In this document: in pieces, positions 16,594 to 38,008 of the stretch
Numbering within the stretch: position 1 is the first letter of the stretch
Layout: every line of letters starts with the position of its first letter
Assembly: GCF_004010055.1 (NCBI RefSeq)
Contig: NZ_RQVT01000061.1
Span: forward strand, 62,001 to 126,000
Direction: 5' to 3'
DNA: 64,000 nt
From: Psychroflexus aestuariivivens
GTDB taxonomy: Bacteria; Bacteroidota; Bacteroidia; Flavobacteriales; Flavobacteriaceae
Made by a program: the position numbers and the translations under genes
Notes under the pieces: model-generated
The model's input: the letters and a program-made list of their open reading frames with translations, nothing else
Databases searched by the model: none
Told to the model about the DNA's origin: nothing

Positions 16594-17076
16594 TTAAGCT
16601 TCATCAGATGACTTTTCAGTATCTTGAGTAGATTCAACTTGATTTTCAGTTTTAGCTTTCTTACCAGCACGTCTGGTAGATTTTTTCTTAGCTTGTTTTT
16701 TACCAGGTGTGTAAACCTCGTTAAAATCAACAAGCTCGATCATTGCCATTTCAGCGGCATCGCCAAGTCTGTTACCAAGTTTTATAATTCTTGTATAACC
16801 TCCTGGTCTATCACCGACTTTAGGAGCAACTTCTCTAAATAATTCTGACACCATGTATTTGTCTTTCAATTTTGAAAAAACCAAACGTCTGTTGTGCGTA
16901 TTATCTAGTTTAGACTTAGTGATCAATGGCTCTACAAATTGCCTTAAAGCTTTCGCCTTAGCAACTGTAGTGTTTATTCTTTTATGCTCAATTAGGGAAC
17001 AAGCCATATTAGAAAGCATTGCTTTTCTATGAGAGGATGTTCTGCCTAAATGATTAAATTTCTTTCTGTGTCTCAT
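16594..17076 (-). CDS. rplQ: 50S ribosomal protein L17
   Basis: A 160-residue large-subunit protein beginning [20 protein letters not shown]. The core (about residues 1-120) matches L17, including RPGGYTRI and [12 protein letters not shown] tail of about 35 residues follows, first Lys/Arg-rich and then acidic. E. coli L17 is 127 residues, and such tails are common in Bacteroidota. It is the last gene of the superoperon. Confidence 0.97.
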
Positions 17077-18744: not shown

Positions 18745-18778
18745 CTATCATGAATTAAGGTCTTTCCTTCGATGATAG
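18745..18778 (-). promoter_or_regulatory. Hairpin upstream of rpsD, candidate S4 autoregulatory site
   Basis: CTATCAT and ATGATAG form a 7-bp outer stem. Inside it AAGG and CCTT pair around a five-base loop, with an asymmetric internal loop (five bases against two). It lies 20-53 bases before the rpsD start, in one of the few long gaps of the alpha gene set. The function is inferred from the known autoregulation by S4 in other phyla. Confidence 0.45.
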
Positions 18779-28755: not shown

Positions 28756-29385
28756 TTATTTATTCAGATTATTTTGTAATTCTTCTAATTTACCTTCTGA
28801 AATAAGCAAAACATTACTGTTTAGAATATTGTAAGTGTTTAATTCTGAAACAGTTACAGCTTTTGCAGTTTTCAAATTACGGGAGGACAAATATACATTT
28901 TTATTTGACTCATCCAAGACTAGAAGAGATTTTTTACTTCTAATATTCAGATTATCAAGAACGTTCAAGTAATCTTTGGTTCTAGGCTTGTCAAAATTAA
29001 AATCTTCAACAATAATAAGTGCCTCAGATTTCATCTTTTGAGAAAGTGCTGAACGTCTTGCAAGACGTTTCATTTTTTTGTTCAACTTGAAGTGATAATC
29101 TCTTGGTCTTGGACCAAAAACGCGTCCACCACCTTTAAAAATAGGAGACTTAATACTACCTGCACGGGCAGTACCAGTTCCTTTTTGTTTTTTAATTTTT
29201 CTTGTACTTCCAACGATTTCAGCACGTTCTTTAGCTTTGTGAGTACCTTGACGCTTATTAGCCAAGTGTTGTTTCACATCTAAATAAATTACGTGGTCGT
29301 TTGGCTCAATTCCGAATACAGATTCAGAAAGCTCAACCTCTCTGCCTGTTTCTTTTCCTTGGATATCTAAAACTGATACTTTCAT
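28756..29385 (-). CDS. rplD: 50S ribosomal protein L4
   Basis: A 209-residue protein. It shows RQGTHKAKERAEIVGSTRKI, KQKGTGTARAGSIKSPIFKG and GGRVFGPRPRDYHFKLNKKM. L4 is the known autorepressor of the E. coli S10 operon, which makes it a candidate for controlling the switch at 30033-30176. Its start overlaps the stop of rplC by one base. Confidence 0.98.
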   Translation of the reverse strand: MKVSVLDIQGKETGREVELSESVFGIEPNDHVIYLDVKQHLANKRQGTHKAKERAEIVGSTRKIKKQKGTGTARAGSIKSPIFKGGGRVFGPRPRDYHFKLNKKMKRLARRSALSQKMKSEALIIVEDFNFDKPRTKDYLNVLDNLNIRSKKSLLVLDESNKNVYLSSRNLKTAKAVTVSELNTYNILNSNVLLISEGKLEELQNNLNK

Positions 29386-29999
29386 TATTTCTGAATAGTT
29401 ACATAAGTGTTATTGTGACCAGGAATACATCCTTTGACAAGAAGTAAATTCTTTTCAGGAACAACTTTTAACACTCTTAGATTTTGAACTTTTACTTTTT
29501 TGTTGCCCATTTGTCCACCCATTTTCATTCCTTTGAAAATACGAGCTGGATAAGAGGCAGCACCTACAGAACCAGGAGCTCTTAACATACTCTGCTGACC
29601 GTGAGTTCTCTCTGAACCTGCAAAGCCATGACGTTTTACAACTCCTTGGAATCCTTTACCTTTAGATGTAGCACTAACGTCTACAAATTCATTTTCTTTG
29701 AATAAATCTACAGTGACATGGTCACCTAACTTATAGTCTTCTTTAAATCCTTGGAATTCCATGACTTTTCTCTTGACAGAAGTACCAGCTTTTTTAAAGT
29801 GACCTAAGTCAGCTTGCGTGGCGTTTTTGTCTGATTTGTCATCGAAACCAAGTTGAAGCGCTTCATACCCGTCAACCTCATTGGTTCTGACTTGGGTAAC
29901 TACACATGGTCCAGCTTCTATAACAGTACATGGGATATTTTTCCCATTCTCGTCGAAAATACTGGTCATGCCGATTTTTTTTCCTATTAACCCAGACAT
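29385..29999 (-). CDS. rplC: 50S ribosomal protein L3
   Basis: A 204-residue protein near the peptidyl transferase centre. It starts [20 protein letters not shown] and shows [20 protein letters not shown] and [20 protein letters not shown]. It is separated from rpsJ by 186 bases holding a terminator and antiterminator, so it and everything downstream appear to be controlled separately from rpsL-rpsG-fusA-rpsJ. Confidence 0.98.
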
Positions 30000-30032: not shown

Positions 30033-30176
30033 AAAAAAAATTCAGGACAAAAAATACTTCGTCCTGAATGTATTTTTTTCCGTTTTTCCCTCGTCAAATG
30101 CTTAGGACATGTTACCCTAAAAACTAATTTAGGATTTGCTAACAACCAATTTACTTCAACAGTAAAAAATTGATTG
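30033..30176 (-). ncRNA. Structured leader RNA before rplC (terminator/antiterminator switch)
   Basis: In transcript order (minus strand), the leader shows these elements: a long hairpin at 30176-30143 (CAATCAA/TTGGTTG with one G-U, then TTTAC/GTAAA across a three-base bulge); a hairpin at 30133-30116 (CCTAAA/TTTAGG, six-base loop); and two exclusive structures. The antiterminator pairs 30081-30070 with 30057-30045 (nine A-U rich pairs plus GGA/TCC after one bulged base). The terminator pairs 30069-30061 with 30048-30040. They share bases 30045-30048. This resembles ribosomal-protein-controlled attenuation. The ligand is unknown; L3 or L4 would be the obvious candidates. Confidence 0.65.
30040..30069 (-). 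terminator. Intrinsic terminator inside the S10 operon, between rpsJ and rplC
   Basis: Minus-strand ATTCAGGAC and GTCCTGAAT form a 9-bp perfect stem with a 12-base loop, followed at once by eight T. An alternative hairpin uses part of the same 3' arm. Confidence 0.88.
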
Positions 30177-30185
30177 TTATTTTAA

Positions 30186-30491
30186 TTAGACCTTAATCTC
30201 TACTTCTACTCCACTTGGTAATTCAAGTTTCATCAATGCATCGATTGTCTTTGATGAAGAACTGTAAATATCCAATAGCCTTTTAAAAGAGTCTAACTGA
30301 AATTGTTCACGCGCTTTCTTGTTAACGTGTGGAGATCTCAAAACAGTAAAGATTTTGCGTTTAGTTGGTAATGGAATTGGTCCAGTTACCACGGCGCCTG
30401 TTGTCTTAACCGTCTTCACTATCTTTTCAGCAGACTTATCCACTAGATTATGGTCGTATGACTTTAACTTTATTCTTATTTTTTGACTCAT
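30186..30491 (-). CDS. rpsJ: 30S ribosomal protein S10
   Basis: A 101-residue protein that also pairs with NusB in antitermination in other bacteria. It starts [20 protein letters not shown] and shows [20 protein letters not shown]. It lies 12 bases after fusA. tuf, which separates these genes in proteobacteria, is absent. Confidence 0.98.
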
Positions 30492-33679: not shown

Positions 33680-33687
33680 TAATTTTG
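33680..33687 (+). promoter_or_regulatory. Putative -7 element of the Omp85-like gene
   Basis: TAATTTTG matches TAnnTTTG and lies 24 bases before the ATG at 33712. It overlaps the TTG (33685) that a longer frame would use as start. Confidence 0.55.
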
Positions 33688-33711
33688 CGTTTGATTTACT
33701 CTAGACTTATT

Positions 33712-35415
33712 ATGAACGAAAAAAAAATATTGAAAATTTTCATCGAAAGAAAAATGTTGATTTTACTCACATTATTTTTTTATATTTCAATATCAGCTCA
33801 AAGCCAAAACTTCTTTATGAAAGTTCAATTTGAAAATGATTCAACTTATCAAAACATCAATAAGTCCTTTCCAAATATTTCAACTGCACTTGAAGAGTTG
33901 GAAAACATAAAAATGAATTACCAAAAGAAAGGATATGCATTTTTAACAACTAAAACAGAACAAAAAAAAGACAGCTTATTCGCCAGTATTGACTTAGGAC
34001 AAAAATTTTCAAATATTAAAATCAAAATCCCTTCAGATTTATATGATTATATGCCTGAAGAATTTTTTCTAAATTCAAGTGCTGACGTTTTAAATTTAAA
34101 ATACGATGAGCTTGATGATTTCTTTAAAAAAATTATTCAAAAAAGCGAAGCCTTAGGCAAACCATTTATAGAAGTAAAATTAAAAGAAATTTCACTTCTA
34201 AATAAAAATACAATTCAAGCTAACCTTCAAATAGAATCTGATAGTCCACGGAAAATTGACAAAATAAATTTAAAAGGCTATGACAAACTCCCGAAGAGTT
34301 TTGTAAAATATTATGCCAATCTGAAAGAAGGTCAATTGTTTTTCGAAAAAGAAATTGATAGGAAAACTCAGAGATTGAACGCTATACCTTTTATAGAAAT
34401 CCAAAAACCAACTGAAGTCTTATTCAAAAAAGACAGCACAGAAATTTTTCTTTATATAGAAAAAAGGGAAAACAATAGTTTTGATGGATTTATTGGTTTC
34501 GGAAACTCTGAAACTAATGACTTTGAAGTGAACGGTTTTATCGACTTGAAACTAAGTAACAATCTAAACTTTGGAGAGAATTTGACTATTATTTACAAAA
34601 ATGATGGCAATAATCAGCAGAGGTTTGAGGCTGATACTAAACTTCCTTTCATTTTTAAAACTCCTGTAAGTATAGGTGCTGGACTTAAAATTTTTAGAAC
34701 CGATTCACTATTTTCTAATACCTCGCAAAAAATAAGTGCCAATTACAGACTTAATGAGAAACTATCGATTTTCAGCAAAGCAAATTTCACAAAATCAACA
34801 TCACTAAAAGAAGATTCATCAGCAGGAACTGAAATCAACGAAGAGATTGAATCTTTCAACTCAAGTTTTTATGGTATCGGCGCAGAATTCGAAGAACCTA
34901 GAACAAACATGCCTTTTAGCGAAGAAACGTTTGCGAGTTTGGGTTTCAACATAGGAACAAGAAAAAACCAAGAAACAACTGAGCAGTATATTATTGAATT
35001 AGAAGTTAGGCATCAGTTCAAGATTAATGAAAGGCAACGAATTCAAGCTAATATATTTGGGAACTATTTGTTTTCTGAGGATTACCTAAATAATGAGCTT
35101 TATCGTTTTGGGGGACTAAATAGCATTAGAGGTTTTGAAGAAAACAGACTTATCGCCTCAAAATTCACAACACTTCAGACGGAATATCGTTATATTTTAG
35201 ACTCAAATATATATGTAAACAGTGTTTTAGATATTGGTTACTATGAAAATGAATTGGATGAAATTAGTGACAACATTCTAGGTTTCGGTGTAGGACTTGG
35301 ACTGAACACACAAGCTGGTATATTGAAGCTAATCATCGCAAATTCAGTTGCTGATAATAAAGAAATAAGTGCTTCAAATAGTAAAATTCATATCAGTTTG
35401 ACATCGTTTTTTTAA
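33712..35415 (+). CDS. Omp85/BamA-superfamily outer-membrane barrel protein
   Basis: A 567-residue exported protein. The signal peptide runs to about residue 30 (FFYISISAQSQ). A periplasmic part follows with at least one clear POTRA-like repeat (KINLKGYDKLPKSF). The C-terminal half is a 16-strand-type barrel carrying the Omp85 signature GGLNSIRGFEENR. It is shorter than BamA (about 800 residues) and resembles TamA-like or surface-antigen (D15) proteins. It probably inserts or exports proteins or lipids at the outer membrane, but no partner gene is adjacent. The ATG at 33712 is preferred over the TTG at 33685. It is divergent from rpsL. Confidence 0.8.
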   Translation: MNEKKILKIFIERKMLILLTLFFYISISAQSQNFFMKVQFENDSTYQNINKSFPNISTALEELENIKMNYQKKGYAFLTTKTEQKKDSLFASIDLGQKFSNIKIKIPSDLYDYMPEEFFLNSSADVLNLKYDELDDFFKKIIQKSEALGKPFIEVKLKEISLLNKNTIQANLQIESDSPRKIDKINLKGYDKLPKSFVKYYANLKEGQLFFEKEIDRKTQRLNAIPFIEIQKPTEVLFKKDSTEIFLYIEKRENNSFDGFIGFGNSETNDFEVNGFIDLKLSNNLNFGENLTIIYKNDGNNQQRFEADTKLPFIFKTPVSIGAGLKIFRTDSLFSNTSQKISANYRLNEKLSIFSKANFTKSTSLKEDSSAGTEINEEIESFNSSFYGIGAEFEEPRTNMPFSEETFASLGFNIGTRKNQETTEQYIIELEVRHQFKINERQRIQANIFGNYLFSEDYLNNELYRFGGLNSIRGFEENRLIASKFTTLQTEYRYILDSNIYVNSVLDIGYYENELDEISDNILGFGVGLGLNTQAGILKLIIANSVADNKEISASNSKIHISLTSFF

Positions 35416-35418
35416 ACA

Positions 35419-35450
35419 CAAAATGCTGCAAAAAAAATTGCAGCATTTTG
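35419..35450. terminator. Hairpin between the Omp85-like gene and the S8 protease gene
   Basis: A 12-bp stem (CAAAATGCTGCA with TGCAGCATTTTG) has an eight-base A-rich loop and lies between convergent genes. T runs after the stem are short (four), so termination may be weaker than at other sites. Confidence 0.65.
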
Positions 35451-35517: not shown

Positions 35518-37410
35518 TTACTCAACAATTATTTTCTTTGAGAAAACATTATTATCAGATGTCATACGTAGTAAGTACACACCAGTTTTAAGTGAAGACA
35601 AATCTAACTTATCCCCATAAAATTCTGACTTGGAAAACACCATTTTCCCTTGAATGTTATAAATAGTAACATCCAAATTCTGAGAATTCATAGTATTACC
35701 GCCAAAATATAAATTATCTTTTACAGGATTAGGATAAACATAAAACGATTCTGAATTGAAATTTTCATTACTTAGAACATCTTCTGCACCTGTAATAACA
35801 ATACTGAAATCTTGCGCTCCATTTTGCAAAGAAGCCTTATGATTCACTGTAAGTGAATATGATCCTTGTGGATTATCTATTTCAATTTTTTCTACATTAT
35901 CTCTAAAATTATCACCTTTAGTTGCAGGCAAAGTTGGTATAGTTGGATTTAAAATCCATGGCTCAAATGTAGTTCCATTCGACTCAACTCTCATATCCAA
36001 ATCATTAACTAGCCTAATTGTAGGATCATTTTCAGCACCTTGAGACTGTGTAGGACCAGAAGGATCCGTCCAAACAATTGTCGCAACTAGCTTATCAGCA
36101 TCAGGATCTGCGATAAAATCTAAAGTATAGGTCTGACCGTCAGTCAAGGTTTCTTCAGAAACGTAGGAAGTTTCTGAGTGATTAAGAAGTGCATTTGCAG
36201 CGCCTTCCATATATAACAGACCAAAACCAAACCTATAATCTGGACCCGCAAAGTTTCCTGCATCTCTTGAAGTACCGATTGCTAGAGCTTTTAGTGTCGC
36301 TGATTTCAAAAATTCATTATTTAAATCCATATTGAGTTCTTGCAAAAGTAGAAGACTTCCAGCTACACTTGGCGCTGCCATAGATGTTCCAGAAATCGAC
36401 TCATACGCATCATCTGAATTTGAATATGTTGAATAAGTATTCGTACCTTTTGCAGCGATATCCGGCTTAATCCTACCATCATCTGTTGGTCCATAACTAC
36501 TACTGTTATTAATCATAACACTAGATCTATTTGTATAATTCAAAACCTGCTGTGTATTAGCAACAGCTATTACGTTTTTTGCTAAATTTTTACCGGTCAA
36601 TAAATCATAAGGATGTTTAGATGAATTATATGGACCTCCTTGGCTAGCTGGAGCGTTTCTACTATTTCCTGCACTAAAAACTGCTGTGTAATATGGGGAA
36701 TTGAAAGTGATTTGATCAATTGTGCTTGCTTGAGAATTGTAATTTCCGAAAAAAGCATCTGGTAAATTATCAGGACTTAATCCGTACGAGTGATTAGAAA
36801 TCAACAAACCACTATTGGATTCTATAATCATTTCAGATGTGTCGTTTCCAAAATCATAAGCTTTTACTGTTGAATTAAAAGCCATACCTTTAGATTGCAC
36901 GTCAAATTGTCCAGACGAAGCAATTGTTCCTGAAACATGCGTTGCATGACTACTTAAAGAACCAGACTCTTGGTTGATAACACGATTATCAAATTCTTGA
37001 TGTGTATCTCTTACATTTCCACCATCCCAGACGCCAATCTCAAAACCAGCACCAGAAAGTGATAAATTAAGACTACCACCTTGATAGAGCTCATTAGTTG
37101 CGACCGTAATGGCTGCATTAAAATTGTGAGTTTCTATGAAAACTGGAGTACCATCATCTAAAACATCGTATAATATTTTCTCTGAACCATCTTTGGCTTT
37201 AAAAATAGTTGGTGCTTTAAAACCAGCTGAACGAATTCGCTCTAATCTTTGTTTGCTTTCTTCATCCAATTTAGCAGATAAATCCAAATTAGAAGTAACA
37301 TCAGTAGCCTTTATAATTTGAACACGCTGGTTGTCTGTTTGTGAAAAACAACTTATTGAGTAAAAGGAACAGACTAAAAAGAATAATAATTTAATGTATA
37401 AAATTTTCAT
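35518..37410 (-). CDS. Secreted S8 (subtilisin-like) serine protease with type IX sorting tail
   Basis: A 630-residue exported protease. A signal peptide of about 24 residues ends SISCFSQ and a propeptide of about 90 residues follows. The catalytic triad is Asp129 (GVWDGGNVRD), His155 (SSHATHVSGTIA) and Ser343 (SISGTSMAAPSVAG), with the oxyanion Asn249 in VFSAGNSRN. A proprotein-convertase-like P/jelly-roll region follows (VATIVWTDPSG, LTVNHKAS). The last 75 residues are a type A sorting domain (FYVYPNPVKDNLYF, LKTGVYLLRM, KKIIVE), directing export by T9SS. A TTG frame to 37428 exists; the ATG at 37410 is preferred. It is divergent from the SusC operon. Confidence 0.94.
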   Translation of the reverse strand: MKILYIKLLFFLVCSFYSISCFSQTDNQRVQIIKATDVTSNLDLSAKLDEESKQRLERIRSAGFKAPTIFKAKDGSEKILYDVLDDGTPVFIETHNFNAAITVATNELYQGGSLNLSLSGAGFEIGVWDGGNVRDTHQEFDNRVINQESGSLSSHATHVSGTIASSGQFDVQSKGMAFNSTVKAYDFGNDTSEMIIESNSGLLISNHSYGLSPDNLPDAFFGNYNSQASTIDQITFNSPYYTAVFSAGNSRNAPASQGGPYNSSKHPYDLLTGKNLAKNVIAVANTQQVLNYTNRSSVMINNSSSYGPTDDGRIKPDIAAKGTNTYSTYSNSDDAYESISGTSMAAPSVAGSLLLLQELNMDLNNEFLKSATLKALAIGTSRDAGNFAGPDYRFGFGLLYMEGAANALLNHSETSYVSEETLTDGQTYTLDFIADPDADKLVATIVWTDPSGPTQSQGAENDPTIRLVNDLDMRVESNGTTFEPWILNPTIPTLPATKGDNFRDNVEKIEIDNPQGSYSLTVNHKASLQNGAQDFSIVITGAEDVLSNENFNSESFYVYPNPVKDNLYFGGNTMNSQNLDVTIYNIQGKMVFSKSEFYGDKLDLSSLKTGVYLLRMTSDNNVFSKKIIVE

Positions 37411-38008
37411 ATTTAATTTTTTTCGCAATTTAATACTTATTTTAGGATATCTTTAAATATAAGATTTTTTTTAAAATTTTAGGCTTTTCAAACCTATTTT
37501 AATTGTTGTATGATACTTATAATCAAAAACTAAACCAAACAAAAGAAATTATCAGTAAACTTAATTCAGGCTATCTAAAAAGCTATAGATGACCAGAACA
37601 ATTCTATAAAAAGTATAATATTTCACCAGAGAATTCAGAATTTGAATAAATATTAAACCGATCATTCAATTAAAAAAAATAAAAATAAATACATGATCTA
37701 CTGGAGACTGATAGGCTATTTGACGTAAGGACTAAAACAAAATACTGCACTAGTTTAAGCTTGAAAATCGAATTCAAATATTGAAAAACAAATAAGTTAG
37801 ATTGAATTTCACATATAGTTTGTAGAATTATTCTTCAAAGTTTGAATTAAAAGACATTAAATGTGCGATTAAATTTCAGAGTTTGACACCCTAAAACAGA
37901 GTAATAATAGGATTTAACACTGTTAAAGTTAAATTAAGGTAAAAAAGATTTGCGTGATTAACTTTATTTTTAGACTTTTGGCGTTGGCTAATTCAAATAA
38001 ATAAAAAA
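37411..38008. other. 598-bp intergenic region between the S8 protease gene and susC
   Basis: No intact gene was found. The region is AT-rich and must hold two divergent promoters, but no exact TAnnTTTG precedes either start. The one clear structure is a 15-bp palindrome at 37913-37927. Frames over 37690-37830 translate into protein-like stretches broken by several stops; the support is too weak to call a pseudogene. Confidence 0.6.
37913..37927. repeat. 15-bp palindrome upstream of susC
   Basis: TTTAACA, a central C, and TGTTAAA form perfect arms, 82 bases before the susC start. It is followed by the TTAA-rich GTTAAATTAAGG. It is a possible operator or activator site. Confidence 0.4.

Follow-up and report, generated by a model that had tools for sequence, protein, structure and literature searches.

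Introduction

In Escherichia coli, ribosomal protein L4 is described as halting transcription at an intrinsic terminator within the structured leader of the S10 operon (PMC10931766). That leader sits before rpsJ, and its control also acts on translation. The same paper describes the L10(L12)4 leader located before rplJL in Bacillus subtilis, where attenuation proceeds via an anti-antiterminator, an antiterminator and a terminator. A leader candidate placed before rplC, rplD, rplW and rplB was described in Archaeoglobi by Eckert and Weinberg (2020, PMC7247131), with L4 proposed as the ligand by precedent; the candidate is archaeal and, according to its authors, borderline. The table of 20 leaders in that paper contains none before rplC in Bacteroidota. 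The S4-Flavobacteria leader (RF03141) is a 33-nt hairpin before rpsD, and the structured 5' regions of F. psychrophilum have been catalogued (PMC9723704). The GUCCY-hairpin motif is entered for Bacteroidetes and Proteobacteria in its table row of Weinberg 2010 (PMC2864571), with no Rfam accession in that row. Among the open-licence PubMed Central papers that our searches listed, we found no report of a leader between rpsJ and rplC in Bacteroidota and no description of the balancing of the main ribosomal-protein cluster at rpsJ-rplC in Flavobacteriaceae.

The element described here lies between rpsJ and rplC in the window, by which we mean the whole analysed stretch of 64,000 nucleotides from Psychroflexus aestuariivivens. 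It shares with the E. coli S10 leader the gene cluster concerned, a structured leader that contains an intrinsic terminator, and the proposed transcription feedback, but it matches no known family at threshold and differs from an E. coli-type L4 leader in standing after rpsJ rather than before it. The scheme proposed below is that of the B. subtilis L10(L12)4 leader, whereas the gene that follows is rplC and not rplJ. The likeness to the Archaeoglobi candidate is one of placement and of L4 as the ligand proposed by precedent, and that to the GUCCY-hairpin motif, compared by its table row alone, one between the letters of its name and those of the core. The S4-Flavobacteria leader shares the lineage and the gene cluster of the rplC leader and shows no match to it. 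The kind of leader is known, and the RNA family appears to be unlisted.

Results

The genes on the minus strand of the window follow the order rpsL, rpsG, fusA, rpsJ, rplC and then 27 further reading frames whose succession agrees with the customary one, a run that ends with rplQ at 16594. NCBIfam gave names to 20 submitted proteins, comprising the four encoded upstream of the leader and 16 of the 28 encoded downstream. The rpsJ-rplC gap is 186 nt long and has a folding energy of -41.3 kcal/mol; dinucleotide shuffles averaged -25.8 (z -4.2), and none of 200 was as stable. The features of the locus are collected in Table 1.

Table 1. Genes and RNA features around the rpsJ-rplC gap of the window
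Feature	Position	Strand	Basis
rpsJ (S10), gene preceding the leader	30186..30491	minus	NCBIfam S10, 153.6 bits
Outer hairpin in the gap	30141..30178	minus	gap fold
P0, hairpin directly before the core	30114..30135	minus	gap fold; counterpart in 76/93 upstream segments
5' joiner ACAUG of the core	30108..30112	minus	near-invariance in 112 cores
P1, core stem	30087..30107	minus	covariation; half-swap test
3' joiner AAAACGG of the core	30080..30086	minus	GAAAAACGG in 109/112
12-pair antiterminator hairpin with its arms at 30078-30066 and 30060-30049	30049..30078	minus	prefix fold; arm swap test
Intrinsic terminator, a 13-pair stem closed by a 4-nt loop	30040..30069	minus	fold
U tract of the terminator, eight U	30033..30040	minus	position mapping
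rplC (L3), first gene past the switch	29385..29999	minus	NCBIfam L3, 273.2 bits
rplD (L4), second gene past the switch; putative source of the ligand	28756..29385	minus	NCBIfam L4, 243.7 bits

Truncating the window's transcript immediately upstream of the GC core in the 3' terminator arm gave a fold with the 12-pair antiterminator; when this arm was included, the terminator became the minimum-energy fold. The same exchange was observed across 101 distinct sequences, in folds that describe equilibrium and not kinetics: cut transcripts had 9.3 expected antiterminator pairs (at least four in 98 sequences), and full transcripts had 0.7, together with 4.6 of the 5 terminator core pairs (at least four in 91). 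On average, the two antiterminator arms pair better with each other than with arms from other sequences. In 92 distinct arm pairs drawn from 108 of the 112 loci, a comparison inflated by kinship among the sequences, arms paired with their own partner at -4.81 kcal/mol and with swapped partners at -3.24 kcal/mol, and none of 2000 swaps was as good. Restricting the comparison to the 42 arm pairs without the common AATAC arm gave -4.79 versus -2.98 kcal/mol, again unmatched in 2000 swaps. Taken sequence by sequence over the whole set, the median share of foreign arms that paired better than the own arm was 20%. Four loci with a miscalled terminator or with N (L080, L111, L130 and L131) were excluded from the arm swap and fold tests. 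P0 likewise has counterparts: a hairpin below -4 kcal/mol ending at most 6 nt from the core was found in 76 of 93 distinct upstream segments, the remaining 19 of the 112 having fewer than 24 nt, a repeated segment or N. The fold was significant at the 5% level against dinucleotide shuffles in 58 of the 93 (mean z -2.3), and the P0 sequence is not conserved.

The original prediction had placed a switch between rpsJ and rplC, with a 9-bp terminator and its eight T competing with a 12-bp antiterminator and two further hairpins upstream. The placement was borne out by the naming of S10 and L3, and the antiterminator, the two hairpins and the eight U were all recovered; the terminator stem has 13 pairs, so that 9 bp was an undercount. 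The conserved core, which is the main feature of the locus, falls inside the range of that prediction and had been missed by it. Elsewhere in the window, a terminator-like hairpin of 13 pairs lies on the plus strand (35419-35450) between the convergent frames 33685-35415 and 35518-37428 and looks ordinary.

The core has the form ACAUGUC-P1-GAAAAACGG and occupies 30112-30080 of the minus strand, just upstream of the antiterminator. Among 112 cores, 64 from loci found by similarity to rplC and 48 further ones, the 5' side reads ACAUGUC in 94, AAAUGUC in 16 and otherwise in 2, and the 3' side is GAAAAACGG in 109. The stem between these joiners occurs in 77 distinct forms, of which 13 are helices of at least seven contiguous pairs; the others contain a purine-rich internal loop or have the form CACCGAUGCGGUCGCG. 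In a model-fitted alignment of 91 distinct rows, where kinship among the sequences again inflates the test, 92.2% of the P1 cells were paired and 43 cells had changed on both sides, neither value being reached in 500 shuffles, and slid versions of the alignment gave at most 62.2% pairing and 7 cells; the number of pairs with change on both sides (4) was matched by 42 of the 500 shuffles. When the alignment was left unfitted and every one of the eight possible P1 pairs was counted, 71.5% of the cells paired (0/500 shuffles) and 16 cells had changed on both sides (38/500), in 5 pairs (43/500). Without the outer three pairs, P1 halves still paired better with their own partner (-2.71 kcal/mol) than when swapped (-2.00 kcal/mol; none of 2000 as good). 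On a MAFFT alignment, RNAalifold recovered the terminator and, of P1, no more than the three outermost pairs, with breaks in some rows. The element is a conserved RNA structure with covariation, as is found in leaders of the ribosomal-protein kind.

The distribution of the core was followed in two ways. Similarity to rplC yielded 110 loci (30 + 80), of which 109 had a readable rpsJ-rplC gap; the core was present in 64 of these gaps and absent from 45, in a set that is not a random sample since the loci were picked by L3 similarity (L096, without rpsJ, was kept out of all gap counts, and L173 has no readable gap). A covariance model, R1, with 34 positions was built from 47 of 62 distinct sequences, 15 near-copies being left out by choice. 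R1 matched 313 of 397 Flavobacteriaceae genomes (194 of 237 genera) at E <= 0.01 and had no match in the other 84; the matching genomes that were listed had a single match each, and at least one match was false (G188, E 0.0085). A phylum sample, searched like the order sample under the stricter filters of large searches and rich, as that sample is, in matchless genomes of a single Flavobacteriaceae genus, gave matches in 17 of 395 genomes, all of them Flavobacteriaceae, and the order sample gave 25 of 296, namely 24 Flavobacteriaceae and one genome of another family (G839, E 0.001). Fifty of the 52 fetched matches at E <= 0.01 (L111-L159, L164, L165 and L169; some of the 50 come from genomes of the first set) lie between rpsJ and rplC, and the remaining two, those of G188 (L159) and G839 (L169), have neither L3 nor S10 nearby. 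The element is thus consistently located upstream of ribosomal-protein genes. R1 gave no match below E 0.1 in 23 genomes from the order's other families. Inspection by eye likewise revealed no core in the 13 readable gaps from outside the family, which measure 11 to 110 nt and are shorter than 40 nt in 10 of the 13.

In the window's own genus the core was present in 10 of 23 gaps and missing from 13, which together with the 84 of 397 matchless family genomes indicates that the element is dispensable. A quick tree of 150 rows, built from S10, L3, L4 and EF-G and having an outgroup that does not form one side of a branch, required 6 changes of core presence, at least 4 of them forced by starred branches, and none of 500 shuffles was as low. 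The tree as drawn is compatible with a single basal gain in the family followed by five losses, two of them in the window's genus and the others in Flavobacterium with Avrilella, in an uncultured clade with Arcticimaribacter, and in Nonlabens with a relative.

Several gaps showed features of their own. Six coreless gaps of the window's genus (L013, L014, L015, L023, L024 and L028) have retained a bare hairpin with a T run. The Flavobacterium gaps that we read are without the core, and in four of them (L072, L083, L084 and L085) a shared promoter-like site leads into CCCTGTTTGGAAATTTCTG...GAAGGG, which may mark a different leader. Five gaps (L056, L059, L080, L100 and L103) share AGACGCGCTGG past the terminator, with a brief A/T run after it and then CGTCT ahead of rplC; this block may be a second element in the untranslated region.

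The pattern TAnnTTTGC is a promoter pattern of Bacteroidota. It was found between rpsJ and the core in 13 of 106 distinct leader-bearing gaps, and by length of the upstream stretch the counts were 9 of 11 at 200 nt or more, 4 of 29 at 60-199 nt and none of 66 below that, compared with 0.04 in shuffles of the longer stretches (>=150 nt). The leader is retained in gaps that have their own promoter-like site as well as in gaps that have none. By this pattern the window's gap has no such site, and the switch there would act on read-through from rpsJ.

The Rfam 15 comparison gave no family at its gathering score for the leader, whether in the window itself or among 37 relatives; the best weak match in the gap was sraA (30.2 bits against a threshold of 56, E 0.0079), and L10_leader matched neither the gap, at E values up to 5, nor the window's genome at E 0.001. 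The sole match at threshold within the window was the S4-Flavobacteria leader (RF03141, 43.3 bits), at 18746-18777 of the minus strand between rpsK and rpsD, so that the cluster has at least two leaders.

Ribosomal-protein leaders often resemble the rRNA site of their ligand, although they need not, and similarity of the core to rRNA was also considered. The 23S rRNA of the window's genome (L163:1059-1081) holds CAUGUCCGAGAGGGAAAGAACCC, which resembles the core, and AUGUCC stands shortly before GGGAAA in 28 of 30 fetched 23S loci of the family (24 genomes); 16S rRNA was not found in the window's assembly. Shuffled 23S scored as high in 77, 115, 3, 196 and 159 of 200 cases for five core forms, so that four of the five were not above shuffled sequence, and the window's form (3/200) aligned with many gaps. 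The site corresponds to what we take to be helices 41-42, bound by L10 and L11, and is ill-suited to proteins of this cluster. Mimicry of rRNA is kept as no more than a weak lead.

Discussion

The competition of terminator and antiterminator at this locus is confirmed beyond chance both by folding and by covariation, and the data support a cis-acting switch that is located after rpsJ and kept with covariation. Much of the original prediction accordingly stands: the switch acts in cis, P1 and antiterminator pairing is kept while the sequence changes in rpsJ-rplC gaps, and there is no Rfam family at threshold to contradict its statement that no described RNA family was recognised here. It fares less well against its own proviso that the element should not be absent from close relatives, as many of them (13 of the 23 same-genus gaps) are without it, absences that the tree reads as losses. 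That rplC and the genes behind it would be set separately from the upstream genes, as it also proposed, is plausible.

The reading that we favour, with a probability of about 0.6, is that the element is a ribosomal-protein leader which controls rplC and the cluster behind it by transcription attenuation. P0, the core and the A-rich arm would be transcribed first, and the A-rich arm would pair with the future terminator loop and the inner 3' arm to form the antiterminator, so that the polymerase would read on. An excess ribosomal protein of the cluster would bind to the core, the bound core would hide the antiterminator arm, and the terminator would then form and stop transcription before rplC. 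A single base separates the end of the core, at 30080, from the start of the antiterminator arm, at 30078, and binding of a ligand would therefore be expected to hide the arm; from this anatomy we infer that a ligand on the core would favour termination. As to its identity, Eckert and Weinberg give as the best guess a protein known as a ligand elsewhere, a rule uncertain by their own warning (PMC7247131). This rule and the E. coli precedent favour L4, which we name as a tentative candidate at somewhat less than even odds. A ligand other than a ribosomal protein seems unlikely, a further protein of the cluster besides L4 and L3 is a less likely candidate still, and L3, although encoded by rplC, the nearest to the leader of the candidate ligand genes, is the least probable of these.

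The recognised parts seem to be the two short joiners, carried on stems whose sequence is free, and this would also suit an attenuator whose core binds the polymerase, a small molecule or a NusA/NusG-type transcription factor. Polymerase itself is a target of antitermination RNAs, and the lack of clear rRNA similarity in the core, as well as its occurrence once per listed genome and, among true matches, only before rplC, points the same way. We nevertheless consider such a signal rather unlikely, as placement before ribosomal-protein genes and the L4 precedent favour a ribosomal protein, and no Rfam riboswitch family matches. It is conceivable, if doubtful, that the element represents a new regulatory RNA class, one whose pair of short invariant joiners on free-sequence stems would be read by a ligand new to leaders, such as L3, or by a general transcription factor or the polymerase itself, with rplC to rplQ controlled separately from rpsL-rpsG-fusA-rpsJ.

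Simpler explanations account for less of what was observed. The bare hairpin with a T run kept in some coreless gaps of the same genus would suit a plain terminator whose fixed partial read-through reduces expression of the genes downstream, in which case the remaining features would form no switch, but the conserved upstream core and the covarying antiterminator make this improbable. An attenuator operated by a leader peptide from the AUG of ACAUG would fit the AUG that 111 of the 112 cores carry; the frame that it opens varies from 2 to 49 codons and stops after two codons in 35 of 112, and in view of this missing conserved short reading frame the explanation was rejected as highly improbable.

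For the control of the ribosomal-protein cluster in Flavobacteriaceae, the ribosomal-protein leader proposed here supplies a defined 34-nt core and a covariance model, and the apparent losers, namely Flavobacterium, part of the window's genus and Nonlabens, offer natural comparisons. If L4 is indeed the ligand, the leader would be a separately evolved answer to a problem that E. coli solves before rpsJ.
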